A stretch of DNA of 64,000 nt from positions 1 through 64,000 of the forward strand of contig JAJFKX010000049.1 in assembly GCA_021772985.1 (NCBI GenBank). The letters run 5' to 3'. The notes under the pieces were generated by a model, which was not told the DNA's origin, searched no databases, and saw nothing but the letters and a program-made list of their open reading frames with translations. Both the position numbers and the translations under genes were made by a program. Positions 1,244-19,611 of the stretch are shown piece after piece. This DNA is from Gammaproteobacteria bacterium. Lineage in GTDB: Bacteria > Pseudomonadota > Gammaproteobacteria > Xanthomonadales > Wenzhouxiangellaceae. Positions within the stretch are counted from its first letter, which is position 1, and each line of letters starts with the position of its first letter.

Positions 1244-1255
1244 GGTAGTAGTGTT

Positions 1256-2539: not shown

Positions 2540-2570
2540 AGCAGTCTGCTTACGGATTAAATTATTACAC

Positions 2571-3710
2571 ATGCGAATAAGAGCCATTGTTATTTTATTC
2601 AGTGTCATTGCAGTGACCTTAATCGCTGGGATGTTGTATCTACGTGAACCAGTAGAAATCGTTATCGATAATGCCTACGTAAGCGGCAGAATAATCCGGA
2701 TATACGCACCAAGGGCCGGTTACCTAGAGCAGACTACGATTAGCAAGAGTCAGTCATTTGAAGCCGGAGGGGCGACTATCAGCTATGACACCAAGCAAAT
2801 CGATCTCGAGATTCAAGAGCAGACAGCCAAATTCAAACTCAATATTAACAATGAATTAGCCAGTTGTTTTGCCTTGAAAAAAGCCTCGAATGAATACGAA
2901 CGGGCCAAAGCTGAGAGCGACCACAGTGAGTTAAGGTATGGTCGTATTCAATCGTTGATTGAGGTGGGTTCAAGACTATCTCCAGATGAAGCGGCTCAAC
3001 GTAATAATGATTTTATTATCGCTAAAAAGAATGTTGAGGTAGCTGCCATTGATGTTGAAAGGCTGCAATCGTTGAACAAATTGCCCATTTTGCAGCGAGC
3101 CGCAATCCAGCAGTCCGAAGCCCAGTTACGCAAAAGCCTGCACGAGCGTTCATTACATCAAATTAATCTTTCCTTCGCCGGTTATGTCTATGAGAGTCTG
3201 GTATATCCAGGCAAGTATGTCAGTGAAGGTGAACTGCTCGCGATTGTTGTGCCTCGAGAGCAGTTGATGATTGAAGCCAATGTACTTGAATCTAAACTGG
3301 ATAGCATCAAACCAGGTCTAAAAGTGGATATCAAACCGGATTCACATCCTGGTGAAATACTGCCTGGGTATGTACACAGTGTGGTGCCGTCCACAGCTGC
3401 GACCTTCTCAGCGCTGCCGAGAAACAATACTGATTCCAACTGGATCAAGGTATCCCAACGGGTACCAGTGTTGGTTGGGTTCAACGCCGAGCCTGCAGCC
3501 GGTATTAACCTGGCCCTGGGCGCATCAGTGAGATTAATCATACATCTGAATAATGCAGCTGAACAAACGCCTGAGCTGAGCAATCGCCAACCTGAATGGT
3601 TAATGGATAACCTTAAGGCCAGTGACGATGAATATATGAGAAATCTTGTTGACAGCGTATTGAAAACTTTGACTGAGACAGAAAAAGCCAGTTGTCAATT
3701 CAGCGTATAA
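2571..3710 (+). CDS. HlyD/EmrA-family membrane fusion protein
   Basis: A periplasmic adaptor of 379 residues anchored by one N-terminal membrane helix (about residues 4-23). After the helix comes the beta-barrel/lipoyl half (IDNAYVSGRIIRIYAPRAGY), a helical hairpin rich in Glu, Lys and Ala (about 75-195), the second lipoyl half, and a C-terminal barrel (VPREQLMIEANVLESKLDSI). This is the EmrA layout. It sits 9 bases before an EmrB-like permease and 31 bases after the second ATP-grasp gene, so it most likely works with the permease to pass the product of the ligases across the periplasm. No outer-membrane channel gene is in the visible part of the cluster. Confidence 0.88.
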   Translation: MRIRAIVILFSVIAVTLIAGMLYLREPVEIVIDNAYVSGRIIRIYAPRAGYLEQTTISKSQSFEAGGATISYDTKQIDLEIQEQTAKFKLNINNELASCFALKKASNEYERAKAESDHSELRYGRIQSLIEVGSRLSPDEAAQRNNDFIIAKKNVEVAAIDVERLQSLNKLPILQRAAIQQSEAQLRKSLHERSLHQINLSFAGYVYESLVYPGKYVSEGELLAIVVPREQLMIEANVLESKLDSIKPGLKVDIKPDSHPGEILPGYVHSVVPSTAATFSALPRNNTDSNWIKVSQRVPVLVGFNAEPAAGINLALGASVRLIIHLNNAAEQTPELSNRQPEWLMDNLKASDDEYMRNLVDSVLKTLTETEKASCQFSV

Positions 3711-3719
3711 CGACTCACC

Positions 3720-5183
3720 ATGTTAGCCAAATTTAAAAGTATCTTTGGCATTTACTTCATTATTTTTTCTCAGATGCTGGATACCTCGGTCACCAATCTG
3801 GCACTGACCAAAATTGCTCCTGACCTGGGAATAGATGTACTGCATGCTTCCTGGATCATGACATCATTCGGAACCGGGCTGATTGTTTCATTTCCGATGG
3901 CCAGTATCCTGGGAAAGAAATTCAATCCCGAAACGGTGTTTTTTTGCAGCAGCCTGGGATTTATTGTTACCTCAATCGGTTGTGGTGTCGGATTTTCGAG
4001 CCTGGATTTTATTATCATGCGATTCCTCCAGGGAATCACATCCGGTATCGTAGTGATACTCTCACAATCGATCATGATTCGGGTCCTGGGTGAGGATAAA
4101 AAGCCATTGGCTATGTCATTGTGGGTCAGTGCGATCTCACTGGCACCGATATTCGGGCCATTGATTGGCGCCTATATAGCTGATTATTTCGGTTGGCGCT
4201 GGATATTTTTTATTAATGTGCCAATTGTGACTATTTGCCTGTTGGCTTTGATTGATGAGCTCACCTTAAGTGGTGAAATCAAACCAGATGATAAACGTAT
4301 CTATATCACGTTGGGTTTTTTTATCATCAGCATCAGTCTATTACAGTATGTGCTGGATTTCGGTCGTTTGCGTAACTGGTTCAACGATGCCACTATTTTA
4401 TGGTTCACCATCATTTCCTCTGTGTCATTTCTGTTGTTTCTATACTGTAACAACAAAAAAGATTACATGATTTTGAATCTGTCGTTATTCAAGGATTATA
4501 ACTTTGCGTTCTCGGTGGTGATCATCAGCCTAGGCAATGGTCTGATTTTTTCTTCGTTGATCCTGCTCCCGATTTGGCTACAACTGGATTACAAAATGCC
4601 GATTATTACCGCTGGCATTATTGTTTCGGCCGGAAGTCTGGTGGCATCTGTGCTCAGTCCTGTGGTCGGAAAGTTTTTTAAGAACAGTCAATACGTAATG
4701 TATTCGGTCATGAGCTTGGTGTCACTCGGGATTTCATTTTATATGGCCAGTGGCTTCCGGCTCGATACCAGCATGGACTATGTGCTTTTCTCGCGGGTCT
4801 TTTTCGGTATTGGTGTCGCACTTTTCACAGTACCGTTGACCGCATTGTCCCTGTCAAGATTGGACAGTTCGCAATACATCAGTGCCAATTCAATTACCAT
4901 GACGACCAGAGTGCTGTTCGCCAATATTGCCACCTCCATGGGTTTCGCCTATTTCACCGGTCGTTATTACTATGAGTATGAGCAGAACGTGGTAGAAGTA
5001 GATCGCTACTTTATCGTAGAGCAGGCGATTGAAAACACTGCGTATCCCTTTATTGTTGAGATGTCGAGAATGGATGCATTTCGGAATGTTTTTTTACTGC
5101 ATGCAGTGCTTTTCTTTGCAATGGGGGTGGGGATATATTTGTTGAATATACGATCTTCGAAACGACCCACAAGTGCTGCTTGA
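3720..5183 (+). CDS. MFS drug:H+ antiporter-2 (EmrB/QacA-type) permease
   Basis: An inner-membrane exporter of 487 residues with about 14 hydrophobic segments, the number expected for DHA2 transporters. Helix 1 has the family signature in the form MLDTSVTNLAL; the antiporter motif C region reads GPLIGAYIADYFGWRWIFFI. A membrane fusion protein immediately upstream makes an EmrAB-like pair. Export of a product made by the two ATP-grasp enzymes is inferred from position only; a general drug or acid-stress role is the alternative. No terminator is visible after the stop; the following 800 bases hold no gene. Confidence 0.9.
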   Translation: MLAKFKSIFGIYFIIFSQMLDTSVTNLALTKIAPDLGIDVLHASWIMTSFGTGLIVSFPMASILGKKFNPETVFFCSSLGFIVTSIGCGVGFSSLDFIIMRFLQGITSGIVVILSQSIMIRVLGEDKKPLAMSLWVSAISLAPIFGPLIGAYIADYFGWRWIFFINVPIVTICLLALIDELTLSGEIKPDDKRIYITLGFFIISISLLQYVLDFGRLRNWFNDATILWFTIISSVSFLLFLYCNNKKDYMILNLSLFKDYNFAFSVVIISLGNGLIFSSLILLPIWLQLDYKMPIITAGIIVSAGSLVASVLSPVVGKFFKNSQYVMYSVMSLVSLGISFYMASGFRLDTSMDYVLFSRVFFGIGVALFTVPLTALSLSRLDSSQYISANSITMTTRVLFANIATSMGFAYFTGRYYYEYEQNVVEVDRYFIVEQAIENTAYPFIVEMSRMDAFRNVFLLHAVLFFAMGVGIYLLNIRSSKRPTSAA

Positions 5184-5980: not shown

Positions 5981-8191
5981 ATGCGGATAACTGGAATTTT
6001 AGCTGTACTGTTGTTATGTGCAGGCCACGTCTATGCAGAAGTTGCTGTTGGAGACCGGCTGGTAAGGATTGATCGTACAGAAGATGCTGTAATTGGTCTG
6101 ATCGGAGATATTTTTGCTTCTGACAGTGATGAAATTAAAGGTGCTATCCGCAGTGTTACTGTGTTGGCAGCTACTGAACACACATTGCAGATTGCGGTTG
6201 AGTACACCAATTTTCAGGGCGGCAGGATTACCGCTACTGTACAGGGGGCGCAAGGCGCACGTTTACGGCAAATTACCCAGGCGCATCAAACAGTAGCAAG
6301 TGCGGATACACAGTCTATTCAGACTATTGAACTGGAGTTCAATCTGCAGAATGGTTTGGGAGAGGACTTTGAATTGCGCTCAGGGCAACTGGAAGTCAGT
6401 GTCACCAGGCAGGGGCACAGCGTTAAACAGCATGTTTCCAGTTTTGCCATGGATAAACTGTGGACAATGCAACTGGCGCCGGAGAACGTAGCTATCCAGG
6501 TTACTCCGGCACCACTTGCAAATGCGGCCAGCTGGGTTGGTAGCCTGACTTCCACCGGTGGTGCTACAGGGACTGCCGGCGCTGCTACTGCAGGTGCGTT
6601 ACGACCGGTTGTGCTTGAGCTGCCAGCTGCCAGATACTCCGAGTTGCGACCCCTGAGTGTATCCAGAGAAGCACTCACCACAGAACGCCGATCAACCAAT
6701 ACAACAACACCAGCCACTATCAATGAAAGGGTGTCATTGCAACGCTCGGAAAGTGTTTTACTGAACAACAAAACAGTGATTGAAAAACTGCCGCAAGCCT
6801 ACAGTAAAGTCACTATAGCCAACTACAATTTTGCACAAAAACGCACGCCAGCTACCCCTCAATCAACTGAACCCACAAATGAGATAGGCAGCAATTACCT
6901 GGATTTATTTCAGGGGGTTGAGGTGGATGGGTTGGAATATGTCGATGTTGGGCCTGCAGATATTTTGGGTGTGTATGGCCGTATTTACCCAGATAAAAAC
7001 GCCAATAGTGGAGTGTATTACTACATCCCTGAATCTTACCGGCTGGCTTATGATGAAGACTTGGGTGGTGCCAAAGGCCTGGGTTTCAGAATATCTTATG
7101 ACCGTATAGGTGATGAGGTCAGCGATGATGCAGTGCGCATGGCAGTCTCGTTGGATTCAGCTTTGTCTTTTCAGGAAATCGATATCGCGGAACAAATTGT
7201 TAGCCGCCTGGCTCGCCGCAATTCACTGAAATTTACCCAGTTGAAAGCCTATCCGCTGGCTGCGCCGCCATTGTTTGATTTTTCCGGTGGGCTGGCCGGG
7301 CGGGTTGATAGTGAAGATGTGGCCGTGGTGGCTTTGTCTAATACGTTGGAAGGGATTGATGTTTCCTGGACCACCGATGGTATCACTGCACAGAACCTGC
7401 GCCGTGATTTGCGCGATGGCATACCAATCAGCGGCACTGCTGCGTTCAGTGCGCCGAATACCGATGCGCCTACCGAGGTGGTACCAATGCGGGTTGAATT
7501 GTCCAATCCAGCAGTGTTTGACCCGTTGCATTTTTCACGAACAGAAGCCATCCGTAACAGCTCACCATTGCCGGTGATATTGAAGAATTTGCATGTGCTG
7601 GTAGAAAAAGCCGATCGGATGCAGATGTATTCCTGGAGCTTGAACAACACCGTGGTACCTCCGCAAGCCAGCATCGATTTGAACCTGGATAATTTCCCTG
7701 CAGCGATTGACAGCGCCGCCACCCGCATATGGTTTCAATATGCGTTGGATCGCAGTTGTGAAAGCTGTATAGATGCAGTGCTGGATGAACTGCTCAGTGG
7801 CGATGTATGGCCGGATACGGGTGCACTAACCCTACGGGCCCTGACTCCTTTGGAGGCGACCTCAGCAGCGGAAATCTGGATAGAAACCCGGTCCCGCTTT
7901 TTTGATCCCAATGACCGTACATTACGTGACGGACAGCGAATTTACCTGACTGAAGATCGAGGCGAATATTCAATTCAACCGATTTTCCTAACCGGACAGA
8001 CAGAATCTGAAGATGGTGAGGAATGGCCGCTGTTTGAATACCGTTTGAGCGTGATTATGCCTGATGGCTCGATTTATGAAGGGCAGAACTGGATTGCCAG
8101 CGACAACGACACAGTAGTGATCGGCTCGTATCAGGTACAGCAATCTTTGGGTTATATGCCGGCCGGCACTGGTGCAGAGCCGGTTGGGTAG
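5981..8191 (+). CDS. Secreted protein of unrecognised paralogous family, member 1 (long N-terminal extension)
   Basis: First gene of the nine-gene secreted-protein operon; 736 residues. A signal peptide (residues 1-19, MRITGILAVLLLCAGHVYA) is preceded by a GAGG ribosome site. Residues 20-190 form a beta-rich domain, then comes a Gly/Ala/Thr-rich linker (about 185-205). The family hallmark, VYYYIPESYRLAYD, starts at residue 345, about 290 residues further in than in its relatives. The C-terminus (FEYRLSVIMPDGSIYEGQNW) again resembles the ends of the relatives. I do not recognise a known domain. The stop lies four bases before the next start, which indicates strict co-expression. Probably periplasmic or exported; no lipobox or membrane anchor is seen. 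Confidence 0.85.
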   Translation: MRITGILAVLLLCAGHVYAEVAVGDRLVRIDRTEDAVIGLIGDIFASDSDEIKGAIRSVTVLAATEHTLQIAVEYTNFQGGRITATVQGAQGARLRQITQAHQTVASADTQSIQTIELEFNLQNGLGEDFELRSGQLEVSVTRQGHSVKQHVSSFAMDKLWTMQLAPENVAIQVTPAPLANAASWVGSLTSTGGATGTAGAATAGALRPVVLELPAARYSELRPLSVSREALTTERRSTNTTTPATINERVSLQRSESVLLNNKTVIEKLPQAYSKVTIANYNFAQKRTPATPQSTEPTNEIGSNYLDLFQGVEVDGLEYVDVGPADILGVYGRIYPDKNANSGVYYYIPESYRLAYDEDLGGAKGLGFRISYDRIGDEVSDDAVRMAVSLDSALSFQEIDIAEQIVSRLARRNSLKFTQLKAYPLAAPPLFDFSGGLAGRVDSEDVAVVALSNTLEGIDVSWTTDGITAQNLRRDLRDGIPISGTAAFSAPNTDAPTEVVPMRVELSNPAVFDPLHFSRTEAIRNSSPLPVILKNLHVLVEKADRMQMYSWSLNNTVVPPQASIDLNLDNFPAAIDSAATRIWFQYALDRSCESCIDAVLDELLSGDVWPDTGALTLRALTPLEATSAAEIWIETRSRFFDPNDRTLRDGQRIYLTEDRGEYSIQPIFLTGQTESEDGEEWPLFEYRLSVIMPDGSIYEGQNWIASDNDTVVIGSYQVQQSLGYMPAGTGAEPVG

Positions 8192-8195
8192 CGTC

Positions 8196-9377
8196 ATGAG
8201 TAACTGGTTACAACGTCTTTATTGTTGCATGTCAGCTGCGTGGCTGTGCAGCAATAGTCTATTGGCTTTGCCGGATTTGAGTACTCGGCAGATGATTCAG
8301 TCACTGACTGTGGCTCAGGATCATAGCCAATCCGATGTGTTTTATTTCTGGCCGGGCGCAATCAATCTGGCCACGCGCAATGCTGACGGCGGGCCGGAGC
8401 TGGCACTGTCGCTGGCACGTTATAGCGGATCGGTGGTGCGTGGTGATGCTGGGGAAACTTCTTTACGGGCTAATTTGTATCTGCGTTTACAGATGGCGTC
8501 AGTAGATTCGGATTTACTGGATATTGTGGCTGCACGGTTACAGCAGGATGCCGGTCATTCGGTAACACTTAGGCCAATGCCGATAAACCGATTGGAAGCC
8601 AGCCTGCTGTTACCGGTGCTGGACACCGAGAACCTCAGCCAGATTGATGTCAATGTGATTGTCGAGTCGGTCGACCGTGAAGCTGGCCGGACACCATTTT
8701 GGACTGAGCGGGATATGTTTATCCCACTGGATGCTCAAACTGCTGAGCTGCTGGAACATCAATTGCGTGATGGAACGCTTGCCATGAGCTTGAGTTACCG
8801 TTTCATCAGCAGGGTGTATGGCAGCACCCAGGCAGCCGGTGAATTGGATACCAGTGGCAATGATGAGTTGGCCGAAGAACTGGATGAAGCCTTGGCGCAA
8901 ATCGAAGCGGCGGCAGCGGCGCAAACCCCGGTACTGGTCGCGATTGGGGCCAATGCCGTACCCATTAGATTGGAACTCAATGAATATCCTGACCGTATCC
9001 AACGCTACGATATTGATGCGGCCTTACCACCAAGTTACCCCAGTTTGTCAGTGTATTGCTATGACTTCAGGGAACAATTGAGGCCGGATTTATTTGAAAA
9101 AGCTGTGGAAATTCAAGCTGCGGGTGTGGCCGGCGGGACTACCGTTTATACCACCCGTTTCAATGCTTATCAGCCTGATCTGTACGCTCAAACAGTTAAA
9201 TTCCCATTTGCTGTGAATTTGCGGCAACCCTATCGCTGGCGCACACATGAAATTCTGCTGAGTGGAGAACAGCTCAGCAGCGACTGGCAGCAAGGTGATT
9301 CCTGGGTGGGGATTATCGATGCCAGCAGTAGTGCTGAGCAAATTGAACAGAATCTGCACTTGACACAAGAACAATAA
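8196..9377 (+). CDS. Secreted protein of the same paralogous family, member 2 (short form)
   Basis: A 393-residue exported protein. I chose the ATG at 8196, four bases after the previous stop, over the in-frame GTG at 8172 because it puts the signal peptide (MSNWLQRLYCCMSAAWLCSN...LA) at the N-terminus. The family hallmark appears as VFYFWPGAINLAT at about residues 48-60, followed by PELALSLARYSG, which matches the PEFLFMKF-type strand of the other members. A second conserved block, PLDAQTAELLEHQLRDGTLAM, matches their AP..KAA...L block. It lacks most of the C-terminal half found in members 3-6, and has an Ala/Glu-rich helix near residue 235. Function unknown. Confidence 0.82.
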   Translation: MSNWLQRLYCCMSAAWLCSNSLLALPDLSTRQMIQSLTVAQDHSQSDVFYFWPGAINLATRNADGGPELALSLARYSGSVVRGDAGETSLRANLYLRLQMASVDSDLLDIVAARLQQDAGHSVTLRPMPINRLEASLLLPVLDTENLSQIDVNVIVESVDREAGRTPFWTERDMFIPLDAQTAELLEHQLRDGTLAMSLSYRFISRVYGSTQAAGELDTSGNDELAEELDEALAQIEAAAAAQTPVLVAIGANAVPIRLELNEYPDRIQRYDIDAALPPSYPSLSVYCYDFREQLRPDLFEKAVEIQAAGVAGGTTVYTTRFNAYQPDLYAQTVKFPFAVNLRQPYRWRTHEILLSGEQLSSDWQQGDSWVGIIDASSSAEQIEQNLHLTQEQ

Positions 9378-9402
9378 CAATAGGTATAGGTGGAGGCCAT
9401 CA

Positions 9403-11223
9403 ATGATCAAGCTAACTCGAAAAATTCTAATGCTGGCGGGAGTATTTTTGGTCAATGCCGGCTTCGCAGCGGTGGACTATGATGCTGGCGTGCTGACCAT
9501 ACAGGGTGTTCAGGTATTTCGTGATGCGCAAGATTCCAACAGCTATTACTACCTGCCGCAGTACCCACGCGTTGCCACCAATAGCGCAGGTGATTTTGAG
9601 ATATTGCTGCTTAAATATCTGGATGCAAGCAATGACAACAACGGTGGTATTTTTCATGCGTTAATTGAATTTACTTTGCCTGATGATGTGCGTGACAGTG
9701 TCGCCAATGAACTCGCCGATTTACGGCCGGGTGCAGAATTAATCGGCGCCTTGCCGTTATTGCAGGCTGATGAGGAAGATCCGGTAGGTGGCTTTCGGAT
9801 AATTTCCGCAACACTCAGCGGTACCGACGGTGGTGGAGTGAACAGCAATGTGATCACCAGTGGGCCAGCTCCGTTGGCAGCAGGTACCAAATCGGCAGTG
9901 GCTGCACATCTATCACAACAGGATGCAACCATCCTGATGGAATCGTTAACCGGCGCAACCTCGGATATATCGGTGGCTATCCGCGGTTATTACGAGGCCA
10001 AGGTCAAGGGTTATAACGCGGTGATTACGGCCAGTATGGACACTGTCTATGAGCATGACAGCATCATTTCCAGCTACCAGAAAGGCTATACCAAACGCCA
10101 GTTGCGTGATGTGGTCGATGAGCTGGTGCAGGATGGGGCGATAAATATCGAAGTGTACGATCGCTCTGAGGCGCTGGGCATTGAGAGTGATGATCTGGCC
10201 AAAGTATTGGATTTGGTAACCGATAAAATCACTGAGTTGATGTTTAACGCCGAAACCGGCTGGTCGCGGGTACCTACACCGGAGGTGGCGGTGGCTGAAG
10301 ATCAGATTAAGGGTAGATTAGACCAGGGCTGGTTTCGAAGAACTTTTCTTGGTGAGGAAGATGTGCCTTATTACACTGATGATCAGTTCGTATTAAAACG
10401 GCGTGAAGACATACGCTCCAACCGGTTTTACCTGAATTTATCAAAAAGCACCTCGATCAAACTGCCGTTTGATAGCACCGGTAATCTGGGTGGTTTTTAT
10501 AACGCCTTGACGGAAGCTCAACGTGAGCGTTATTTCCGCGTAATTGCCTTAGACCGGGACATCGACATGCAAGCACGCGAAGTGTTTTTCCAGGTTGATG
10601 GCGAAATTGCTGAAGGTTTTTCCAATACCTTTAATAACCTGGCGATCAATGTACGCCAGACGCCGGTAGAAGATGCCCCGATAGACAGCCGCCAGTTGAT
10701 TTTTGACAGCCGGTCGATAACCACGGGTGAGGCTACTCAGTCATTAAATTTTTACCGCTTGGGTGATGCCAGCGATGCCTGGACCAATTTTGAGTATCAG
10801 GTGGCCTGGAACCTGAAGGGCCGTGATACGCCGATCCGTGAACCGAAAAACGCCAATAGCTGGGTTAAATCAAAGGACGCCATTATTGCCTTGCTGCCAC
10901 CGTTGACCAGGCAAAACGTGATGTTCGATGTGGATGTCGCTGACTTTGCTGATAAGGACATTGTCGCCGTAGTGGTGCAGGTGGCATCGATTATCGATGG
11001 TTCACCGATGTTTGTGGAAAACCTGCGTTTCCGTGCAGCGGATGCTGAGCTGTCCAGGGAGGTCACCCTGTTTTCTGATCCGGAAGAGACCCTGGCATAT
11101 CGCACTATCTGGTATACCCGGCAAGGTGAAGTACGCGATGGCTTCAAATCCATCAATGGCGGTTTTGTATTCGTATTCTCACCGGCAGCGGAATGGCTGG
11201 CTGAGCAGTTGAACAATGGCTGA
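9403..11223 (+). CDS. Secreted protein of the same paralogous family, member 3
   Basis: A 606-residue exported protein with a signal peptide ending at FAA (about residue 23) and a strong Shine-Dalgarno site (GGTGGAGG). It shows the full family layout: SYYYLPQYPRVAT (about 47-59); a Gly-rich GGIFHALIEF strand; the block APLAAGTKSAVAAHL followed by SDISVAIRGYY; a TELMF segment; the strand block FVLKRREDIRSNRFY ending in NLGGFY; VFFQVDGEIAEGF; and a C-terminal FEYQVAWNLKGRD with a final beta domain. No catalytic motif of a known enzyme family is visible. Its stop codon overlaps the region of the next start. Confidence 0.87.
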   Translation: MIKLTRKILMLAGVFLVNAGFAAVDYDAGVLTIQGVQVFRDAQDSNSYYYLPQYPRVATNSAGDFEILLLKYLDASNDNNGGIFHALIEFTLPDDVRDSVANELADLRPGAELIGALPLLQADEEDPVGGFRIISATLSGTDGGGVNSNVITSGPAPLAAGTKSAVAAHLSQQDATILMESLTGATSDISVAIRGYYEAKVKGYNAVITASMDTVYEHDSIISSYQKGYTKRQLRDVVDELVQDGAINIEVYDRSEALGIESDDLAKVLDLVTDKITELMFNAETGWSRVPTPEVAVAEDQIKGRLDQGWFRRTFLGEEDVPYYTDDQFVLKRREDIRSNRFYLNLSKSTSIKLPFDSTGNLGGFYNALTEAQRERYFRVIALDRDIDMQAREVFFQVDGEIAEGFSNTFNNLAINVRQTPVEDAPIDSRQLIFDSRSITTGEATQSLNFYRLGDASDAWTNFEYQVAWNLKGRDTPIREPKNANSWVKSKDAIIALLPPLTRQNVMFDVDVADFADKDIVAVVVQVASIIDGSPMFVENLRFRAADAELSREVTLFSDPEETLAYRTIWYTRQGEVRDGFKSINGGFVFVFSPAAEWLAEQLNNG

Positions 11224-11233
11224 GAACAATACT

Positions 11234-12979
11234 ATGTGCAAACATTTAATCAAAACGATTCTCAGTTTAGGCATTTGCTGCCTGGCGGTAACTGCGCAGG
11301 CGCAACTGATGCTGGAACAGGGGCAGCGGTTAGCTGGTTTGCAGGTCTATCCGACGCTGAGCAACCCTCAGGAATACCGCTATATACCTGCTAATGCTCA
11401 ATTGGCTACGCGGGCCGATGGTGAGCCTATATTTTCCTTTGTGTTTTATGTCTCGGATGCGCCGGTGAGTGAAAACGAAAGCGCAACCCAGGTCAGTTCA
11501 ATTACTCAGGCTGATGGTGGGGCGATTTTGCATTTCCAGGTGGAATACAACACGGATGCTGAACAGGTTGAGCAGGCTCAGCAGGAATTGCAGCAGCGAA
11601 TGGATGACGACGAGCTGTCGATTGTTGGCCCGGTAGTATTTGCTGATGGCAAATACTCGGTGATTTCATCAGTATTAAACGCAGAGGGTGTGCGCACCGC
11701 TGAATTATTGGCACAACGGCCGGCGCCACTGCTGCAGGGTAACCGGGTGGCCTTGTCTTTTGATTTGACACCGGAGCTGGCCAATATTCTGCTGGCCACA
11801 TTTAAAACCGCCACACCGGATATTTCCATCACCTTCGATATGGGTTTTTCCGGACTGACGCAAGCATATAACGCAGAAATGCTGATCGATTGGACCAAGA
11901 CCCAGGAGAGTATGCAAGCGGGTGCTGGAGTCAAAATCTATGTGGTTTCGCTGGAAGCGGAAGCTGCCATCGAAAAAGCATTTCAGGACGGTGCAATTCA
12001 ATTGCAGGTCAACGGTGATGATACAGCCATGGAGAGCCTGCTGGAATTGGCATACAGCAAAGCTATGGATATTTTGTATGCCCCAATTGAAGTTGCTGAA
12101 GTGCCGGACGATCAGCAAGCGGATTTGATGGGTGCCATCGCCGGCCTGATTGGTGGTGGTGCGGATTCGGTGCTGCCGATCGGTGTATCCGGGGCGTTTC
12201 GTTTAAAGAGCCTGCGCAGTGAAGGTGCAACCCGGTTGAGCTTCAATAAACGCGCCACCACTCAACAGCACGCCATGTTAACTGCGAATATAGGCGGTTT
12301 ATATAACCAATATGGTGATGATCCGAATTTTTTCCGGGTGGAATCTACCCGTGATCGGGATTTTGATCAACGGCAGGTATATGTGTTGGTAGATGGTGCA
12401 CTGGCTCCTGATATCGGCCATTTCGTTAACGCTATCGAAGTGACTCTGAACAAGCAGCATGACGGTGGTGAGCAAACCTTGCGAGAGCTGGTAATTAATG
12501 CAGCCTCACCCGATACCGGTCAAACCCTGGGGCCGTTGTCTTATAACAACATTGGTGACAACGACAGCCTTGCCTGGTTGGGCTACCAGTTCAAAACTGC
12601 TTGGAGTTTCGTTGGCGGCGGTCGTTTCGAATCCGAGTGGCGGACCAGTAGTGCGGCGACCATTAACCTGTCCGCTGCCTATCACCGCTTGCCGGTGCAA
12701 ATTGAAAGCAACATGCAGGTGTTGAGCGATCTGGGGGTGCGTTCGGTAGTGGTCCAGGTCAGTGCAGACTTTTTTGGCCGTCGTATCAGCGAACGCCGCA
12801 GTGTATCGGTGTTGACTGATACACAGGTGGAACCTATTTCGCTGGTGCTGCCGGCGGGTGAATACCACTACGATTACGACATTACCTGGGTATTTACCAA
12901 CCGTGAACGCCGTCAGCAGAACGGGACGGATGATCTGGGCTTTATTTTTCTGGACGAAGTTCCGGCCGCAACCGATTAA
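11234..12979 (+). CDS. Secreted protein of the same paralogous family, member 4
   Basis: A 581-residue exported protein when started at the ATG at 11234, which gives a clean signal peptide (MCKHLIKTILSLGICCLAVTAQA). An in-frame ATG at 11216 overlaps the previous gene and would add an acidic, signal-breaking extension. Family blocks seen: EYRYIPANAQLAT (about 48-60), AILHFQVEYN, APLLQGNRVALSFDL, TPDISITFDMGF, FRLKSLRSEGATRLS ending NIGGLY, VYVLVDGALAPDIG, and the C-terminal block YQFKTAWSFVGGGRF with FIFLDEV at the end. It is closest in layout to member 6. Function unknown; probably folds as a mainly beta protein in the periplasm or outside the cell. Confidence 0.86.
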   Translation: MCKHLIKTILSLGICCLAVTAQAQLMLEQGQRLAGLQVYPTLSNPQEYRYIPANAQLATRADGEPIFSFVFYVSDAPVSENESATQVSSITQADGGAILHFQVEYNTDAEQVEQAQQELQQRMDDDELSIVGPVVFADGKYSVISSVLNAEGVRTAELLAQRPAPLLQGNRVALSFDLTPELANILLATFKTATPDISITFDMGFSGLTQAYNAEMLIDWTKTQESMQAGAGVKIYVVSLEAEAAIEKAFQDGAIQLQVNGDDTAMESLLELAYSKAMDILYAPIEVAEVPDDQQADLMGAIAGLIGGGADSVLPIGVSGAFRLKSLRSEGATRLSFNKRATTQQHAMLTANIGGLYNQYGDDPNFFRVESTRDRDFDQRQVYVLVDGALAPDIGHFVNAIEVTLNKQHDGGEQTLRELVINAASPDTGQTLGPLSYNNIGDNDSLAWLGYQFKTAWSFVGGGRFESEWRTSSAATINLSAAYHRLPVQIESNMQVLSDLGVRSVVVQVSADFFGRRISERRSVSVLTDTQVEPISLVLPAGEYHYDYDITWVFTNRERRQQNGTDDLGFIFLDEVPAATD

Positions 12980-13005
12980 TAACAATGCAAGTATGGAGAA
13001 AAAGC

Positions 13006-14934
13006 ATGTTACGTATAACAACAATAATAAAACACGGCATCGCGGTACTGGCATTGCTTTGTTTAGCGTTTCCAGGCCATGCGGTGTTGGACAATGAGCA
13101 GCGCATCAGCGTCAAACTCGACGATGGTACTGATGTGGTTTTGTATGCAGAGGCCGGTTCGAGCAGCACCAAAAAGTATTTTTATCTGCCGCCGCGTTTG
13201 ACTATTGCGGTTTCGGATGACGATCGCCCGGAATTTTTATTTATGAAGTTCATTACTGATGCGACCCTCGAAAATGGTGGCGTATCCGGTGCGATATTGC
13301 ATTTTCTGGTGAAGTGGGGGCTGACCACTGAACAGGAAGCGGAACTGAGGGAAATCATCGAAGATGAACATGAGGGTGAATTGGGTGGCGCTGCTGCGAT
13401 GCATGCACCAGTCGGTGACAATCCGAGTTTCTATGTGGTTTCGGCTACCTTGAGCGACGGGCAGATGACCGAGTCGGTGGTGACTTCCGGCGAAGCACCA
13501 TTGGTGCCCGGCGGCAAAGCCGCGGCGGCAGCACGGTTGGATAGCAACGGGGCACAGCTGCTGGCAAAAACCTTTGAAGAAGATACCACCATCACTGATG
13601 TTACCGCAGTGTTCAACATGGCCTATGAAACCCAGCTGCCCGCAGCCAGGGGCAAGGTGACCATTGATTGGAGCCATATCGAACACGAGCGAGAAGAAAT
13701 TCATGCCGAATATTCACAAACCAAAAGTGGTGAAGACTGGTACGCCGATTGCTTTTTTATATTTTGCGCTTACGGCAAAAGTAACAATTATGAATACAGC
13801 TATGAGGAAATGCATAGTCAATATTCTTTTCTGGCGGACAATAAGTACATAGATTTTAAATTCGAAGAAAATATCAGTGATGAACGGGTTACTGTAATCC
13901 GTGAAGCATTCATCAATTATTTTATTAATTCCATGTCAATCCCACCACCGCCGGCTCCTGCAGCTGATGATGATGAGGGTGATGGTGATCAGGGCCTGGA
14001 TATCCAGAAAGGTGCCAAATACACCTATGACGTAACCAAAATCAATACGGTTATTCAGCACGGACGACAGGAATTCCGGATGGATTACAAGCTGGTATTG
14101 CGCTGGCCGTATCAGGTGGTCGGCAATCTGAAGAGTTGGTATGCCGAAGCCGTCAGTGATCCGCACGCTGTGCAGTCAGTGATCTTGAATGACCAGTTTT
14201 ATCAATGGCGCGATTTGTTATTCCTGCTGGATACTGATGCACAGGACATGATCGAAGCGGGTGAAATTCGCTACGCAACTATTGAGGTCACTAAAAACCG
14301 AAATCAAGGCCGTTTCAACGATAGTTTGACTTTTGACGAACAGCACGTTGAAGAGCAGGGCAGCAGGGCGATGGTCACCTACGCTCGCGGGGATGACACC
14401 AACAGTGATGTTTATCAGTACCGGATCAAATGGAGTTTTCGTGGTGGTCATGAATATCCTGAAAACGCTAACTGGCAGGCAGGTTCCTGGGAAGGGGTAA
14501 CGGTAGCTGCGCCAATTGAAAAGCGTGTGATTGAACTGGAAGGTGATATTGAGGAACTGGAGCAAGCCGGTATTACCCGGGTGACGGCCCAAGTGCGTTT
14601 TCCTAAATTCGGCAATGAAGAAGAACAAAACATCGCGATGACACTCAGTCGTGGTGAGCCGCTGATTGAGCAGCCGATATACCTGGATACTGGTGCTGAA
14701 GGTTATGTCTATCGGCTGATCTTCAACCACCGCACCCTGGGGCGGTTTGCATTGCCCTGGAGTAAACGGGTCTCCGACGATTATATCTTTGCTTCAATCC
14801 CTGATGAGTTATCCACCAATATTATTGAAGAGGTTGTTGAAGGCGTGCTTGAAGTAGCGAAGGAGGCCGTGATTGCTGAAGCTGGCGAACAGTTGGCGAA
14901 ATTCGATATTTTGCTTGATGGAGAATCATCATGA
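13006..14934 (+). CDS. Secreted protein of the same paralogous family, member 5
   Basis: A 642-residue exported protein. The ATG at 13006 is preferred over the one at 12985 because GGAG at 12995-12998 is seven bases upstream of it and the signal peptide (ending PGHA) then starts the protein. Family blocks: KYFYLPPRLTIAV (about 57-69), AILHFLVKW, APLVPGGKAAAAARL, and the C-terminal YQYRIKWSFRGGHEY and YVYRLIFNH. Differences from its relatives are a Tyr/Glu-rich insertion with two Cys (DWYADCFFIFCAYGK) and a Pro/Asp-rich linker (PPPPAPAADDDEGDGD). Its stop overlaps the next start (ATGA). Confidence 0.86.
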   Translation: MLRITTIIKHGIAVLALLCLAFPGHAVLDNEQRISVKLDDGTDVVLYAEAGSSSTKKYFYLPPRLTIAVSDDDRPEFLFMKFITDATLENGGVSGAILHFLVKWGLTTEQEAELREIIEDEHEGELGGAAAMHAPVGDNPSFYVVSATLSDGQMTESVVTSGEAPLVPGGKAAAAARLDSNGAQLLAKTFEEDTTITDVTAVFNMAYETQLPAARGKVTIDWSHIEHEREEIHAEYSQTKSGEDWYADCFFIFCAYGKSNNYEYSYEEMHSQYSFLADNKYIDFKFEENISDERVTVIREAFINYFINSMSIPPPPAPAADDDEGDGDQGLDIQKGAKYTYDVTKINTVIQHGRQEFRMDYKLVLRWPYQVVGNLKSWYAEAVSDPHAVQSVILNDQFYQWRDLLFLLDTDAQDMIEAGEIRYATIEVTKNRNQGRFNDSLTFDEQHVEEQGSRAMVTYARGDDTNSDVYQYRIKWSFRGGHEYPENANWQAGSWEGVTVAAPIEKRVIELEGDIEELEQAGITRVTAQVRFPKFGNEEEQNIAMTLSRGEPLIEQPIYLDTGAEGYVYRLIFNHRTLGRFALPWSKRVSDDYIFASIPDELSTNIIEEVVEGVLEVAKEAVIAEAGEQLAKFDILLDGESS

Positions 14935-17072
14935 TGCGGGCAAGAGTCACATTATTACTTTTGATTTTTGCTGTCGGTACAGGCGTATCGACCAGTGAAG
15001 CCCAGGAAATCATTCTGGACCGGCAGGTTCGTGCCGGCGAATTGACATTGTTTCCTTCGGTCAGAGATCCCAACAAATATTATTACGTGGCGGATAAAGC
15101 ACGCCTGGCTACCCATGATAACGGTGATCCGCAGTTTTCCTTTCTGCGTTATATCCAGGCCAATGTTTCATCCGATGCTGAAAATGATGAAGGCTCGGGT
15201 GGAGGAATTGTGCATGCGCTTGTTGAACTGGGCGTGACTGATGAACAGTTAGATGATGCACGCAACGACTTGCGCCGGCTTAATGGCAGCGGTCAGATTA
15301 TCGGCCCGGTACCGTTTAAATCCGGTACATTTGCATTAATTTCAGCATTTGCCGAAGCCGGTTCGGAATTCACCGATCAGGTGCTTGGAGTCGGCAATGC
15401 ACCGGTATTGGAAAATGAAAAAGCCGCGGTGTCACTGAGCCTGACAGAGCAAGGAGCAAAGGTATTGTGGGAATCGTTCAATACGGCAACCCCAGATATT
15501 TCGTTTTCATTCAATATGGAAATAGATGGCTATCGGGCACCCAAGCGAGCACTGATAGAAGCCAATTTTGATCGTATTTATGAGCATCAGAACTTTGCGG
15601 CAGGCATTGCTACGCCGGTTTTACAGGCTGAAATTAGTGCCGCATTTGATGATATGCGCAGTGAGGGCGCAATCAAAGTCACACAAACCGGTGAAGACGA
15701 AAAAATGGAAGCACTGGTGCAGACAGCATATAACCGTCTGACCGAGTTGATGTTCGATAAATCTGAATCTTCCGGTATGGATCTGGGAGCTTTAGCCAGC
15801 TCGGCCAATAATACCCCCAGTATGCTGGATAAAGCATCAACTTTGCTGGCCAGCAATCGTGCTGAAACGCGTACCGAAAATGACGCTATCCGAGCTCGCA
15901 ACGAAGCCATTGATAACCGTGAAGCGACAGCTGCGCAGAGCAATTCCCAACTGGAAGAAACCCGCGCGCAGGTGGAAGCGGCTGAAGCTGGTGCCGAAGA
16001 TATTGAAAATCGTGCCGAATCAATGCGGGCGATTGCCGACCGTTACGAGTCACAGGCAGAGCAGGAGCAGGACACTGCCCGAGCTGCGGAATTACGTCAA
16101 TTGGCCACACGCTTTCGTGAGCAAGCCGGCCGTTATGACAACATGGCTGTTGAGCGGCACCGGGATGCGAATACTCGGCGTGGGGAATTGGACGAGCAGG
16201 CAGCAACTGCTGCCCAGGCGGAATCGCTGGCCGAAAATGCCGGGGAACGTGAAGAAGTACAGGATCTGCCATCGTTGGCGATTGTTGCTTCATACCGGAT
16301 GAAACGGGTACGCCAGCGTGGCAGTTTCACGGTTGATTTGAACAAATACACGATCGATACGCTGGCATTGCGGTTTGATGAAAATATCGGCGATATGACC
16401 CGCTATTTAAATGACGAGGAAGTGTTTTATACCGTGGACATCACCAGTAATGCATTTTCACAACGTGAGTTGCCGGTGTATATCGATGGCTTGAATGTTC
16501 AGGATTTTGGTCAGTACATAAATTTTGTCACGGTATTGATGAGCAAACAGCATGAAAACGGTAATACCAGTAGTGATGAAGTGCGTATCGATCGCAATAA
16601 TTTCCAGGAGAGCGCAAATAATTTCAAATTGTCTTATCGCAAGGTTAATGACACAGATCAGGATAAATTCCTGGATTATCAATATAGGGTGTTATGGAAT
16701 TTCTTCGGTGGTGCGGAAGTGGATGTTGATTGGGTTGACAGCAGCAGAAGCGGAATTCCACTGAATCCACCCTATCAACGTCGTTCGGTATTTCTGGAAG
16801 CTACTCCGCAGGGGCTTAGTGATGCCAGCATTAAATCCATTGAATTCAAGTTGTATTACCAGCTGGGTGATCGCGAACAGGTAAAACGTTTATCACTGCG
16901 CCCAGGTAACAATGAAGGCATCTCGCAACAGCTGGAATTTATGCTGCCGGAATCAGAATACGAATATGTCTACGAAATCGATTGGCGTATGCAGGACAAC
17001 AGCCGTGTTTCTACCGGTCGTATAGAGTCTGAAGACGGCACGATTTATCTGGACGAAGTAACGGAGGTATAA
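14931..17072 (+). CDS. Secreted protein of the same paralogous family, member 6, with long coiled-coil insertion
   Basis: A 713-residue exported protein that begins inside the stop of member 5. It has a signal peptide (about 1-24), KYYYVADKARLAT (49-61), GGIVHALVEL (91-100), APVLENEKAAVSLSL (157-171), TPDISFSFNMEI (187-198) and TELMF (271-275). Residues about 300-440 are an insertion absent from the other members: highly charged, rich in Ala, Glu, Arg and Gln, with almost no Gly or Pro, typical of a long coiled coil. The shared strand block resumes at SYRMKRVRQRGSF (454-466), and the C-terminus has YQYRVLWNFFGGAE and YLDEV. The coiled coil suggests it spans a distance or oligomerises, possibly as scaffold for the other members. 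Confidence 0.87.
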   Translation: MMRARVTLLLLIFAVGTGVSTSEAQEIILDRQVRAGELTLFPSVRDPNKYYYVADKARLATHDNGDPQFSFLRYIQANVSSDAENDEGSGGGIVHALVELGVTDEQLDDARNDLRRLNGSGQIIGPVPFKSGTFALISAFAEAGSEFTDQVLGVGNAPVLENEKAAVSLSLTEQGAKVLWESFNTATPDISFSFNMEIDGYRAPKRALIEANFDRIYEHQNFAAGIATPVLQAEISAAFDDMRSEGAIKVTQTGEDEKMEALVQTAYNRLTELMFDKSESSGMDLGALASSANNTPSMLDKASTLLASNRAETRTENDAIRARNEAIDNREATAAQSNSQLEETRAQVEAAEAGAEDIENRAESMRAIADRYESQAEQEQDTARAAELRQLATRFREQAGRYDNMAVERHRDANTRRGELDEQAATAAQAESLAENAGEREEVQDLPSLAIVASYRMKRVRQRGSFTVDLNKYTIDTLALRFDENIGDMTRYLNDEEVFYTVDITSNAFSQRELPVYIDGLNVQDFGQYINFVTVLMSKQHENGNTSSDEVRIDRNNFQESANNFKLSYRKVNDTDQDKFLDYQYRVLWNFFGGAEVDVDWVDSSRSGIPLNPPYQRRSVFLEATPQGLSDASIKSIEFKLYYQLGDREQVKRLSLRPGNNEGISQQLEFMLPESEYEYVYEIDWRMQDNSRVSTGRIESEDGTIYLDEVTEV

Positions 17073-17076
17073 AACC

Positions 17077-18132
17077 ATGCAATGTATAAATAAAACACTT
17101 CTGTTACCGGCAGCGCTGCTAATTATTGCGCTGAAAGCCACTTCACAGACCACGCCGGAGACTGATCCTGATTGTTCACAATGTGTTTTCAGCGATGAAG
17201 AAGCTGCACACATCGTGTCCACTTTTGATGACCAGGTGGAGTTGTCACGTTTGATCAGTGAAGCCGAAGCGCCGGTGCGTGCCTATGTAGAGGATTCGGT
17301 CCGCAGTACTGAAATGGGAAGTGCCCGTTCGGTGCGTGATTTTGCTGTCTGGTACAGCTATCGGGTAGCTGAGCGCAATGCGGCAGAGTTAACCCGGCAG
17401 CAACTGGGCACGATTGTTGGTTCAGGGCTGTCCTTGGGTTTGGATTTGTTGTTGCCCGGTGCGGGGGTGGTTGAACGTACGATTCGAACTTATGCCAACC
17501 GCGCCTATCAGGGAATTCTCAGTCAGACCGCTGCCAATGTAGATGATCCGGCTGAGTATTTACAGCAGGTGGCTACCCGTATGGAAGACACCAATGATCG
17601 CTTGACCAACTTTATGCACGATATGTTTCATCCTTCCACTTCCACTGAAGACGGCCAGGCATTGGGTGAGCAAATGGAAGGTGTTAAGTTTTCCTATGTG
17701 CTGGAGCGCGAAGGCCAGCGTGCCCGGAATGATGCAGGTTATCGAACACCCGAACCAGGCCCGGAAACCCGAGGGTTGCTGGATCAATTAGGTGTCCGGC
17801 GTGCCGGCAGTGAGAATTTTGACCGGGTTCATTTTGAATCATTGACGCAGTTGATTCGAGGTGTTTTGTGCGCTGAGATCAATGAGTCTTCAACTGCACC
17901 ATCGGTTTCCAATTGCGAAGGTGAGCCACGTCATTGGTCAACGATTGCCCGTGCTACTGCGATGCGCATCATAACCACCACACCGGCTGAGCAACTGGTG
18001 AGTACGTCACAGCTTCGAAATATGGTCGAATTAACCGACCCGGAACAATTACGGCAGGTTTGCAACGTACAGAGCGAGTTGATGTTTATGTGGCGCAGCC
18101 CGGATTGTCAGGCCTGGTCGCGGGCCAATTAG
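17077..18132 (+). CDS. Exported protein, function unknown
   Basis: A 351-residue protein with a signal peptide (MQCINKTLLLPAALLIIALKATS) and a GGAGG ribosome site overlapping the end of member 6, so it belongs to the same operon. I recognise no family. After a short Cys pair (DCSQCVF) it is largely helical, with one Gly/Leu-rich hydrophobic stretch (IVGSGLSLGLDLLLPGAG) that could be a buried helix or membrane-active segment. Four further Cys lie in the C-terminal third (CAEINESS, SNCEG, QVCNV, SPDCQAW), so disulphides are likely in the periplasm. It does not share the aromatic hallmark of the six upstream proteins. Confidence 0.75.
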   Translation: MQCINKTLLLPAALLIIALKATSQTTPETDPDCSQCVFSDEEAAHIVSTFDDQVELSRLISEAEAPVRAYVEDSVRSTEMGSARSVRDFAVWYSYRVAERNAAELTRQQLGTIVGSGLSLGLDLLLPGAGVVERTIRTYANRAYQGILSQTAANVDDPAEYLQQVATRMEDTNDRLTNFMHDMFHPSTSTEDGQALGEQMEGVKFSYVLEREGQRARNDAGYRTPEPGPETRGLLDQLGVRRAGSENFDRVHFESLTQLIRGVLCAEINESSTAPSVSNCEGEPRHWSTIARATAMRIITTTPAEQLVSTSQLRNMVELTDPEQLRQVCNVQSELMFMWRSPDCQAWSRAN

Positions 18133-18192
18133 CCATCAGAGGGTTGCGGTAACACATATAGGAAAGAATAAAAATAAAATGAAGAGTTGGTT

Positions 18193-18783
18193 ATGAAAAA
18201 CTTGAGTAATAAATCAAAACGAAGCTGTGGATATATAGCGTTGGTGTTAGTAGCTATTTGTTTATCCTCGGCTGTATACAGTGCTGGAGAAATTCGCGAA
18301 TTTGTAGCATATGGGCAATTTATAACAGCAACCCGGTCTGCGCAGTTGAACGACTTTATCAATCAGCCGGGAATTCAGGTCAGCAATGCACGCGAGTTTG
18401 AACGTATGAAAAATCATATTGTGGCGCATTATGAAGGTGTGGAAATCAACAACAGTTTTGTGCGTGATGATTACACCATGGTTGATTGCGTTGCCATCAA
18501 CACCCAACCATCGTTGCGGCGCAATGACGGCAGCTATGCACAAATTGCATCGCCACCGGGGTTATTGCTGCAGGAAAATGAAGACCGTGAGGCGCTGCGA
18601 AATGGCGGAGACAATATGCTGAGTGTAGGTGAGCAGGACGCTTTCGGCAATGAAAAATACTGCCGGCCGGGATTTATTCCGCTGCGCCGGTTACGGCTGG
18701 AAGAGTTGCTTCAGTTCGAGACACTGGACGCCTTTTTTAATAAATATGGAGAGCGGGGCGGAAGCAGCTTTCCCAATTCCTAA
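18193..18783 (+). CDS. Stand-alone neprosin propeptide (activation) domain protein
   Basis: A 196-residue exported protein. The ATG at 18193 is chosen over a TTG six bases earlier; it gives a signal peptide ending VYSA (about residue 33). The mature part matches what I know of the N-terminal pro-region of bacterial neprosin-family proteins: an AREFERMKNHIVAHYEGV helix, the diagnostic strand MVDCVAINTQPSLR, and the closing block DAFGNEKYCRPGFIPLRRLR followed by EELLQFETLDAFF. In single-chain relatives this region is fused to the peptidase; here the frame ends in TAATAG and the catalytic domain is a separate gene 15 bases on. The likely role is folding or inhibition of that peptidase. The family assignment is from memory of motifs, not a search. 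Confidence 0.75.
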   Translation: MKNLSNKSKRSCGYIALVLVAICLSSAVYSAGEIREFVAYGQFITATRSAQLNDFINQPGIQVSNAREFERMKNHIVAHYEGVEINNSFVRDDYTMVDCVAINTQPSLRRNDGSYAQIASPPGLLLQENEDREALRNGGDNMLSVGEQDAFGNEKYCRPGFIPLRRLRLEELLQFETLDAFFNKYGERGGSSFPNS

Positions 18784-18798
18784 TAGCAGGGGCTGGTG

Positions 18799-19611
18799 AT
18801 GTTAAAAAAATCATTAAAACAACTTATTTTGTGTGGCATTGGTATGCTTGCACTAACACTTGGCAATGCTGATGCGGCAGGTTTGCACCGGTATGCATCC
18901 GGTTATCAACTTATTGATAATAAAGGTGGGGATTCGCGTTTGAATGTATGGAAGCCGGATGCAAGATTCTCTTTATCGCAGCATTGGTATTCATCTGGTA
19001 GTGGTGCAACAACTCAGACTATAGAAGGTGGTTGGGTGGTCTATGAGCAAAAATTCAATACAGAAGATCCAGTGTTGTTTATTTACTATACGCCAGATAA
19101 TTATTCCACCGGATGTTATAACCTGGACTGCACAGCTTTTGTACAAGTTAATAATTCCTGGGTATTGGGTGGCAGGCTTGCGCCGCAAAGCAGTATTGAT
19201 GGTACACAATATATTATCCGTATGCAGTGGCAGTTGTTCGAAGGCAATTGGTGGTTGTTTTTGCAAGGCACCGGTGCATATATACCTGTGGGTTATTATC
19301 CTGGGACGTTGTATGGTGAAGGTCAGATGACACAGCATGCAGAGCGAATCACCTACGGTGGAGAGACGGCTGGCGACGCCAGTGATGTTGCCGGAGAGAT
19401 GGGCAGTGGCAGAATGGCCAGTGAAGGCTGGCGTAAATCCGCTTATCAGCGCACGATTTACTACATTGATACAGCATTGACCAGCCATTGGGCAAACCTG
19501 AATGAAATTGAGCCGACGCCCAGTTGTTACACCATTGATATCACCAACAACAGCGGTGGAACCTGGGGTACGTATTTTTATTTTGGTGGCCCACGTTGTC
19601 CAAATCCCTAA
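18799..19611 (+). CDS. Neprosin-family glutamic endopeptidase, catalytic domain
   Basis: A 270-residue exported protein with its own signal peptide (ending NADA, about residue 26) and AGGGG six bases before the ATG at 18799. The mature protein is a neprosin (DUF239) domain: FSLSQHWYSSGSG, then TIEGGWVVYEQ with the first catalytic Glu (E76), STGCYNLDCTAFVQV, a GNWWLFL strand, and TYGGETAG with the second catalytic Glu (E189), ending in GTWGTYFYFGGP. Neprosins are secreted glutamic peptidases that cleave after proline at acidic pH. There is no N-terminal propeptide in this chain; it is supplied by the gene just upstream. Last gene of the operon; its substrates could include the Pro-containing upstream proteins. 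Confidence 0.85.
   Translation: MLKKSLKQLILCGIGMLALTLGNADAAGLHRYASGYQLIDNKGGDSRLNVWKPDARFSLSQHWYSSGSGATTQTIEGGWVVYEQKFNTEDPVLFIYYTPDNYSTGCYNLDCTAFVQVNNSWVLGGRLAPQSSIDGTQYIIRMQWQLFEGNWWLFLQGTGAYIPVGYYPGTLYGEGQMTQHAERITYGGETAGDASDVAGEMGSGRMASEGWRKSAYQRTIYYIDTALTSHWANLNEIEPTPSCYTIDITNNSGGTWGTYFYFGGPRCPNP

Follow-up and report, generated by a model that had tools for sequence, protein, structure and literature searches.

A set of six related, putatively exported proteins retained in distant bacteria beside varying peptidase genes

In extracellular contractile injection systems, the structural genes are generally constant and the enzymes vary. A similar logic may apply to six consecutive genes, g1 to g6, in the stretch of DNA studied here, positions 1 to 64,000 of contig JAJFKX010000049.1 from a gammaproteobacterium of the Wenzhouxiangellaceae (assembly GCA_021772985.1; hereafter the window, i.e., the whole 64,000 nucleotides), but the leaders of the encoded proteins and the lack of a significant match in the PHROGs collection set the two apart. 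The peptidases recognised next to the six genes have described relatives as well. AvrRpt2-like papain-type peptidases (C70) share their family match with enzymes found here, which differ in being linked to the six-gene set and in often being fused to astacin. The neprosin of pitcher plants is, according to PMC9343461, a self-activating zymogen with its pro-domain in the same chain, whereas in the window the pro-domain seemingly is a separate gene with a leader of its own (g8). Overall, the six proteins belong to one superfamily and are kept together in distant bacteria with peptidase genes of changing type close by, which may reflect an exported hetero-oligomeric assembly of six ancient paralogues with an exchangeable peptidase partner, a reading that we regard as evenly balanced between right and wrong.

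The conserved set and its peptidase neighbours

An earlier note on this DNA, made from the sequence alone, had described the products of g1 to g6 as paralogues with the same sequence blocks in the same order. For g3 to g6 this applies in full, as direct comparison shows them to be mutual homologues, with E values from 2e-20 to 5e-72 in phmmer and from 4e-14 to 3e-37 in blastp, and the blocks GGxxHAxVE, AP..KAA, PDIS, NIGGLY, and VDG are visible in their alignment. In g1 and g2 only the aromatic hallmark is clear, these five blocks being unrecognisable by eye, and pairwise comparison of the two with the other members gave nothing significant (phmmer best E 0.04). Profiles of the orthologues were built for each gene and then compared with each other. 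Those of g3 to g6 match one another at 100% probability, and that of g2 matches g3, g4, g5, and g6 at 98.2, 96.7, 95.8, and 98.3%, respectively. For the g1 profile, the probability is 92.6% with g2 (E 4.7e-7 over 311 columns) and only 3.9, 1.6, 12.9, and 13.3% with g3, g4, g5, and g6, the values for g3 and g4 being at the level of the controls. Among these controls, shuffling the columns 15 times in each of six pairs never gave more than 2.3% (score 29), reversed profiles stayed at or below 1.9%, and comparing the six with the profile of an unrelated peptidase gave 3.4% or less. Since the g1-g2 match and those among g2 to g6 exceed these controls, all six belong to one superfamily, to which g1 is joined only via g2, and by its sequence g1 is the most remote member. 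An absence of mutual similarity above background, the outcome that would have told against kinship, did not occur. Chance similarity was considered and rejected for g2, and is unlikely for g1, on the basis of the shuffled, reversed, and unrelated-profile controls.

The paralogues are also old. In the window, g4, g5, and g6 are 23 to 24% identical to g3 and about 30% identical to each other (blastp), whereas g3 to g6 are 45 to 50% identical to their own orthologues in locus L024 and 29 to 45% identical to the remaining orthologues. In a tree of 95 g2 to g6 proteins, from which g1 was excluded, every class forms one side of a branch (support in the Shimodaira-Hasegawa-like approximate likelihood ratio test: g6, 95; g5, 99; g3, g4, and g2, 100), and the class label changes four times, the minimum, compared with a shuffled mean of 55.8; the tree was a quick one, with classes pre-assigned by best score and four long-branched g2 rows. 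The window and L024 pair inside each of the five classes. Recent tandem duplication was therefore rejected, because paralogues are less alike than orthologues and the classes are clades, as the earlier note had anticipated, and it is well supported by these sequences that g2 to g6 are ancient classes that have been maintained separately.

A scan of public genomes with the g3 to g6 alignment, which detects only members with one conserved peptide and hence provides a lower bound, recovered 21 loci. Together with the window and genome G1105 this makes 23 loci, 16 of which have enough flanking DNA; L015, L016, L017, L019, L022, L023, and L025, where the contig or flank ended, stand outside the six-gene count. 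All six genes are present in 15 of the 16 well-covered loci, the window counted, i.e., in the window, L005, L007, L008, L010, L011, L012, and L024, over two entries each in L006+L043, L009+L052, L020+L044, L021+L045, L013+L055, and L018+L054, and in G1105 (L053, L058), whose g2 open reading frame (ORF) is short (189 aa). The search of other genomes that the earlier note had proposed thus found the set repeatedly. The order g1-g2-g3-g4-g5-g6 is seen in the window, L005, L008, L010, L011, L012, L024, and G1105, and the order g3-g4-g5-g6-peptidase-g1-g2, sometimes with duplicated genes, in L006, L009, L013, L018, L020, and L021; in L007, g1-g2 lie on the opposite strand. A second g6-type gene in L006, L012, L016, L017, and L018 forms a clade of its own inside g6 and may make up a seventh class of subunits in some Bacteroidota. 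At L024:9-3068, a single frame matches the C-terminus of DyP-type peroxidases and a pyruvate formate lyase-like domain, which is either a fusion or an artefact.

In 13 of the 16 well-covered loci, including the window, a peptidase or an HExxH candidate is encoded no further than the third gene past g6. The window enzyme, g9, is a full-domain match to neprosin (PF03080, E 1.2e-52, 178.9 bits against a cut-off of 22; PDB 9qr8_A, E 9.2e-37) and aligns both catalytic glutamates of pitcher-plant neprosin identified in PMC9343461 (TIEAGW to TIEGGW and WGGE to YGGE, positions obtained by counting). Its predicted activity would be that of a prolyl endopeptidase at acid pH. The preceding g8 has a weak match to PF14365 that lies below the cut-off (E 0.0048, 17.8 bits, cut-off 39.2) and no match to neprosin in the PDB; judging from their sequences, g8 and g9 (18187-19611) are an apparent split zymogen consisting of two products, each with a leader. 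A second neprosin gene of the same genome lies away from the operon (L060, G000:C12:256548-257192), and its open frame of 430 aa would be long enough for a single-chain zymogen. Neprosin was found in one of five genomes searched and in none of 14 controls.

In the related loci, all 11 scanned neighbours after g6 match C70 (PF12385), and astacin is also present in seven of them, N-terminal to C70 in the four fusions examined singly. Cys40, His136, and Asp158 are invariant in the C70 neighbours. We take these residues to be the C70 catalytic triad. At L016, a small DUF4377 gene intervenes between g6 and the C70 gene. C70 occurs in two of eight genomes searched, once each and both times within this operon, and in two of 14 control genomes; C70-like genes, recognised with a C70 profile built in this analysis, are present in the genome of L018. 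A 450- to 540-aa HExxH protein occupies the peptidase slot in L011, L012, L006, and L013. Leaders of the peptidases were judged by eye in the sequences printed. The association with a peptidase is well supported for C70 and the window neprosin and moderately supported for the other loci.

Structure, location and distribution of the family

The earlier note recognised no known family, and this holds in searches of Pfam, NCBIfam, PHROGs, PADLOC, and the PDB. For g1 to g6, no Pfam or NCBIfam match exceeded its cut-off (best E 0.015 and 0.008, respectively) and PADLOC gave none at 0.01; for g1 to g7, no PHROG match was significant (best E 0.029). The NCBIfam value belongs to weak Rad50/SMC-type matches of the coiled-coil-like part of g6 (about residues 257-489), which at 14.6 bits against a cut-off of 1000 stay far below it. 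Single stray Pfam matches were obtained with 64 members of the g3, g4, and g6 classes (DUF736, E 0.0049; no immunoglobulin [Ig] or fibronectin-III [fn3] family) and with 11 g1 orthologues (DUF961, E 0.0094), and in neither group did Pfam detect a C-terminal sorting domain of the type IX secretion system. The best E values of the profile search against PDB chains were 0.41 (window g3 to g6), 0.03 (g1 orthologues), and 0.24 (g6 orthologues). A characterised family taking in all six was thus not encountered, and the operon is absent from the open-access literature searched, a scope that excludes subscription papers and preprints. By sequence, the protein family and the gene set appear to be of no kind known to the tools used; the term categorically new would cover these two and not the mechanism. 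The 64-row alignment (A8) contains no g1, g2, or g5 rows and lacks the g6 row of L024; in alignment A10, the g6 rows of L011 and L025 are missing as well.

An AlphaFold2 model of g4 based on 64 sequences (mean predicted local distance difference test [pLDDT] score, 85.6; predicted template modelling [pTM] score, 0.62) comprises an N-terminal module (N-module, about residues 37-378) and Ig/fn3-like domains at about 380-480 and 489-583, in 587-aa numbering. Aligned singly with VIA, the domains reach Z scores of at most 6.5 at a root mean square deviation (rmsd) of about 3 to 4. Residues 490-583, for instance, align over 83 residues to the final domain of the cholesterol-dependent cytolysin 4hsc (Z 6.4, rmsd 3.0), and residues 380-480 align over 93 residues to the LIF receptor 2q7n_A (Z 5.8, rmsd 3.5). 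This Ig/fn3 likeness concerns a common fold and, with all Z scores below 8 and in the same range as unrelated models, is not decisive. The whole of g4 has 42 PDB matches at E<=1e-3, with TM-scores of at most 0.15 by the length of g4 and 0.25 by that of the target. Modelled alone (residues 27-380, 62 sequences; pLDDT 82.9, pTM 0.76), the N-module seems to be an Ig-like sheet broken up by alpha/beta insertions; it has no Foldseek match in the PDB at E<=1e-3 (best 7.9e-3), and its best VIA Z score is 4.2 (CTLA-4), a lack of fold match that does not demonstrate a new fold. By homology, g3, g5, and g6 would share the g4 arrangement of an N-terminal module with an Ig core followed by Ig/fn3-like domains, g2 would be a smaller version, and g1 would carry a long extra N-terminal part. 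Of the 21 loci, 16 encode short paralogues (223 to 244 residues) between g4 and g5, and the one that was read (L005) resembles the first part of the g4 N-module, which suggests that part of the module can stand alone. In eight loci, a small protein forming one BLAST cluster is encoded between the short paralogue and g5 (e.g., L005:9571-10338). The motifs GH(A/S)G and NC follow a leader in the three that were read, and Pfam gave no match for three of the eight; the protein may be a permuted NlpC/P60-type enzyme.

In the 64-row alignment of the g3, g4, and g6 classes, no His, Cys, or Glu stands in an invariant or near-invariant column, while Asp, Lys, Arg, Ser, and Thr do, and the lack of an invariant His, Cys, or Glu makes a conserved enzyme site in these classes unlikely. 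A CxxC motif (C593, C596) is invariant in all 11 g1 orthologues, and g1 alone was seen with such a motif. With respect to export, the signal peptides claimed by the earlier note are borne out by eye, as all six window proteins start with a hydrophobic stretch, but g2 fails a simple hydropathy leader test (1.51 against a threshold of 2.2) that is passed by 100 of 106 orthologues. A lipobox pattern in the first 45 residues is present in six of the 106 (one g3, two g4, and three g6; none in g1, g2, or g5), and the others lack the lipobox cysteine at the leader end that would mark them as lipoproteins. Membrane-like segments past residue 100 occur in four of the 106. Leader-like stretches in most orthologues together with few lipoboxes and membrane segments point to products that would be periplasmic, surface-bound, or secreted.

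The set is rare and patchy, with occurrences in Bacteroidota, Litchfieldella (L. anticariensis, locus L024, with a complete set), and metagenome-assembled genomes of 'Deltaproteobacteria'. Whole-genome searches recovered it in one of 101 relatives (the window's own genome), two of 398 genomes of the window's phylum (its own and G159), one of 395 in the phylum of the genome of L011 (the centre itself), three of 299 in the G493 family with a threshold of E<=1e-60 (the centre; G1029, identical with the contig of L009; and G1105), and one of 78 in the class of G159 (the centre itself). Scoring in the searches of 398, 395, and 299 genomes was limited to the top three or four candidates from each genome. 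No match to g3 was found in plasmids. Patchy distribution and joint retention of the six fit transfer or loss as a unit. G159 represents a remote branch, in which three ORFs (855, 791, and 750 aa) have clear family matches (A7 1.3e-42, 1e-28; A6 2.3e-15) and a fourth, of 634 aa, has a weak one (A3 1e-4). An ORF of 885 aa, whose N-terminal part is long, resembles g1 only at an E value of 0.0019, and the 791-aa ORF scores higher with the g1 profile (8.4e-5). In L035 and L039 (G159:C6:30001-66000), family ORFs with longer C-termini have an amidase and a Nal1-type protease as neighbours, and a nearby 536-aa protein of G159 has a possible Cys-protease motif (by eye) and no Pfam or PDB match.

Gene layout in the window

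The six consecutive plus-strand ORFs described by the earlier note are present, with gaps of 4, 25, 10, 26, and -4 bases at the starts that it gave (start codons checked), within the range of -4 to 26 that it reported. The unit is larger than the six-gene operon that it proposed and runs past 17072 to the neprosin gene, so that nine plus-strand ORFs stand in a row (5981-19611; Table 1), with gaps of 4, 54, and 12 bases before g7, g8, and g9 and an unchanged strand. The g7 product has a hydrophobic, glycine-rich, membrane-hairpin-like segment at about residues 112-137, and its sole homologue seen adjoins g6 in L024.

About 800 low-GC bases separate g1 from an upstream transport gene. Two ATP-grasp proteins, an HlyD-type adaptor, and a major facilitator superfamily transporter are encoded in a row at 5-5183, which, to judge by their sequences, looks like a group for synthesis and export of a small peptide-like compound. 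The GC fraction of the operon (0.495) is close to that of the window (0.486), and composition thus gives no hint of recent import. An uninformative promoter/terminator scan found nine promoter-like sites compared with a shuffled mean of 21.2, none of them on the plus strand upstream of g1.

Table 1. Genes of the nine-gene unit and the next gene downstream
Gene	Position	Strand	Description
g1	5981..8191	+	736 aa, putatively exported; ~300-residue N-terminal part precedes the YYYIP hallmark
g2	8196..9377	+	Smallest member; 393 aa from ATG 8196, 401 aa from GTG 8172; FYFWP hallmark
g3	9403..11223	+	606 aa; family member with predicted leader
g4	11234..12979	+	581 aa from ATG 11234; 587-aa ORF from 11216 (residue numbering of the model)
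g5	13006..14934	+	642 aa from ATG 13006; family member with predicted leader
g6	14931..17072	+	713 aa, predicted leader; Ala/Glu/Arg-rich coiled-coil-like insert
g7	17077..18132	+	351 aa, predicted leader; no family assigned
g8	18187..18783	+	198 aa, predicted leader; resembles a neprosin activation peptide (pro-domain) encoded alone; weak PF14365 match
g9	18796..19611	+	271 aa; neprosin-family glutamic peptidase with predicted leader of its own
Winged-helix/tetratricopeptide repeat regulator	19736-22087	opposite	Next gene downstream of the unit

What the six proteins may form

The combination of six constant, scaffold-like proteins with a changing enzyme points to one apparatus in which the enzyme is the thing held, displayed, or delivered. 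The six subunits, each a separately kept paralogue, would form a single exported assembly in the periplasm, on the surface, or in the medium, and they would most likely serve as a scaffold or conduit, as no likely catalytic site is conserved. The active part would be the peptidase of the same unit, the type of which varies with the bacterium (neprosin, C70, astacin-C70 fusion, or HExxH protein), and the scaffold may hold, display, or carry it towards proteins or cells outside. A more far-reaching version, which we consider doubtful, is a new kind of asymmetric exported nanostructure in which each of six non-interchangeable subunits would have a fixed place in a single particle or surface device. 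It would be loaded with an exchangeable peptidase (neprosin whose pro-domain is made separately, astacin-C70, C70, or zincin) and would travel between phyla as a cassette directed against foreign proteins or cells.

Several observations weigh against an assembly of this kind. The assembly itself has left no direct sign, and L014 has no separate g4. Pairwise distances measured for one subunit track those for the others (r 0.76-0.98 in the eight loci with all six in the alignments, shared descent not subtracted), which counts in favour of the model, but such a correlation is also expected if the whole locus descends as one piece. The four HExxH neighbours match no Pfam family, so that their peptidase nature is read from the motif alone. 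No peptidase was recognised in the slot at L014, where the next two genes after g6 match no Pfam family, at L024, where a homologue of g7 follows g6 and later genes are unscanned, or at G1105, which has two ORFs without HExxH there and no Pfam scan. In addition, no signal peptide is visible by eye in the related proteins of G159, a poor fit to an envelope complex, and this leaderless set would be at odds with simple Sec export.

The main rival also assumes that the six assemble, but the linked peptidase would serve to mature or release the assembly by trimming or remodelling it and would not be its payload. The fact that in many loci the peptidase gene immediately follows g6 in the same orientation agrees with this explanation, as do the self-activation of neprosin (PMC9343461) and the resemblance of g8 to a separate pro-domain. 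Nevertheless, at least three unrelated catalytic types (glutamic, astacin zinc, and C70 cysteine) occupy the slot, a variety that a changing payload fits better than a conserved cut site, and the loci L014, L024, and G1105 manage with no recognised peptidase in the slot; we therefore consider the explanation unlikely. Somewhat less credit is due to the proposal that the six act separately and are merely co-regulated, e.g., as secreted binders for different substrates of external protein degradation. Ig/fn3-like domains are indeed common in secreted binding proteins and a peptidase gene is linked, but the retention of all six in nearly every well-covered locus and the strict orthologue classes would be unusual for so loose a coupling.

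An adhesin or biofilm-matrix scaffold with a role like that of the fibronectin-III matrix protein RbmA, in which the peptidase would remodel the matrix, is improbable: the weak fold matches of g4 do include RbmA (4be6_A, Z 6.3, rmsd 4.0, 104 residues) and bacterial adhesins, but Z scores below 8 are within the range of unrelated models, and to our knowledge matrix adhesins do not usually require six fixed paralogues. A phage-tail-derived injection particle (extracellular contractile injection system or tailocin) would account for constant structural genes with changing enzymes, for the G159 relatives without visible signal peptides beside an amidase, and for the 26 matches of whole g4 to viral models at E<=1e-3, which are mostly fibronectin-III or unnamed phage structural proteins and include tail and baseplate proteins (TM-score at most 0.16 by the length of g4 among the 50 matches listed), but it is very improbable in view of the leaders detected by hydropathy in 100 of 106 orthologues, the lack of a significant PHROG match for g1 to g7 of the window, the absence of g6 matches in phages (tblastn), and the 31 pattern stretches found in viral contigs with the g3 alignment, none of which is a relative.

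Large, strongly conserved multi-gene exported systems outside the catalogued families are uncommon. If the six proteins assemble, they would constitute an undescribed hetero-oligomeric surface or secreted machine common to Bacteroidota and Proteobacteria, and the swappable peptidase would make its purpose directly testable. If they do not assemble, the question becomes why six ancient paralogues stay together.

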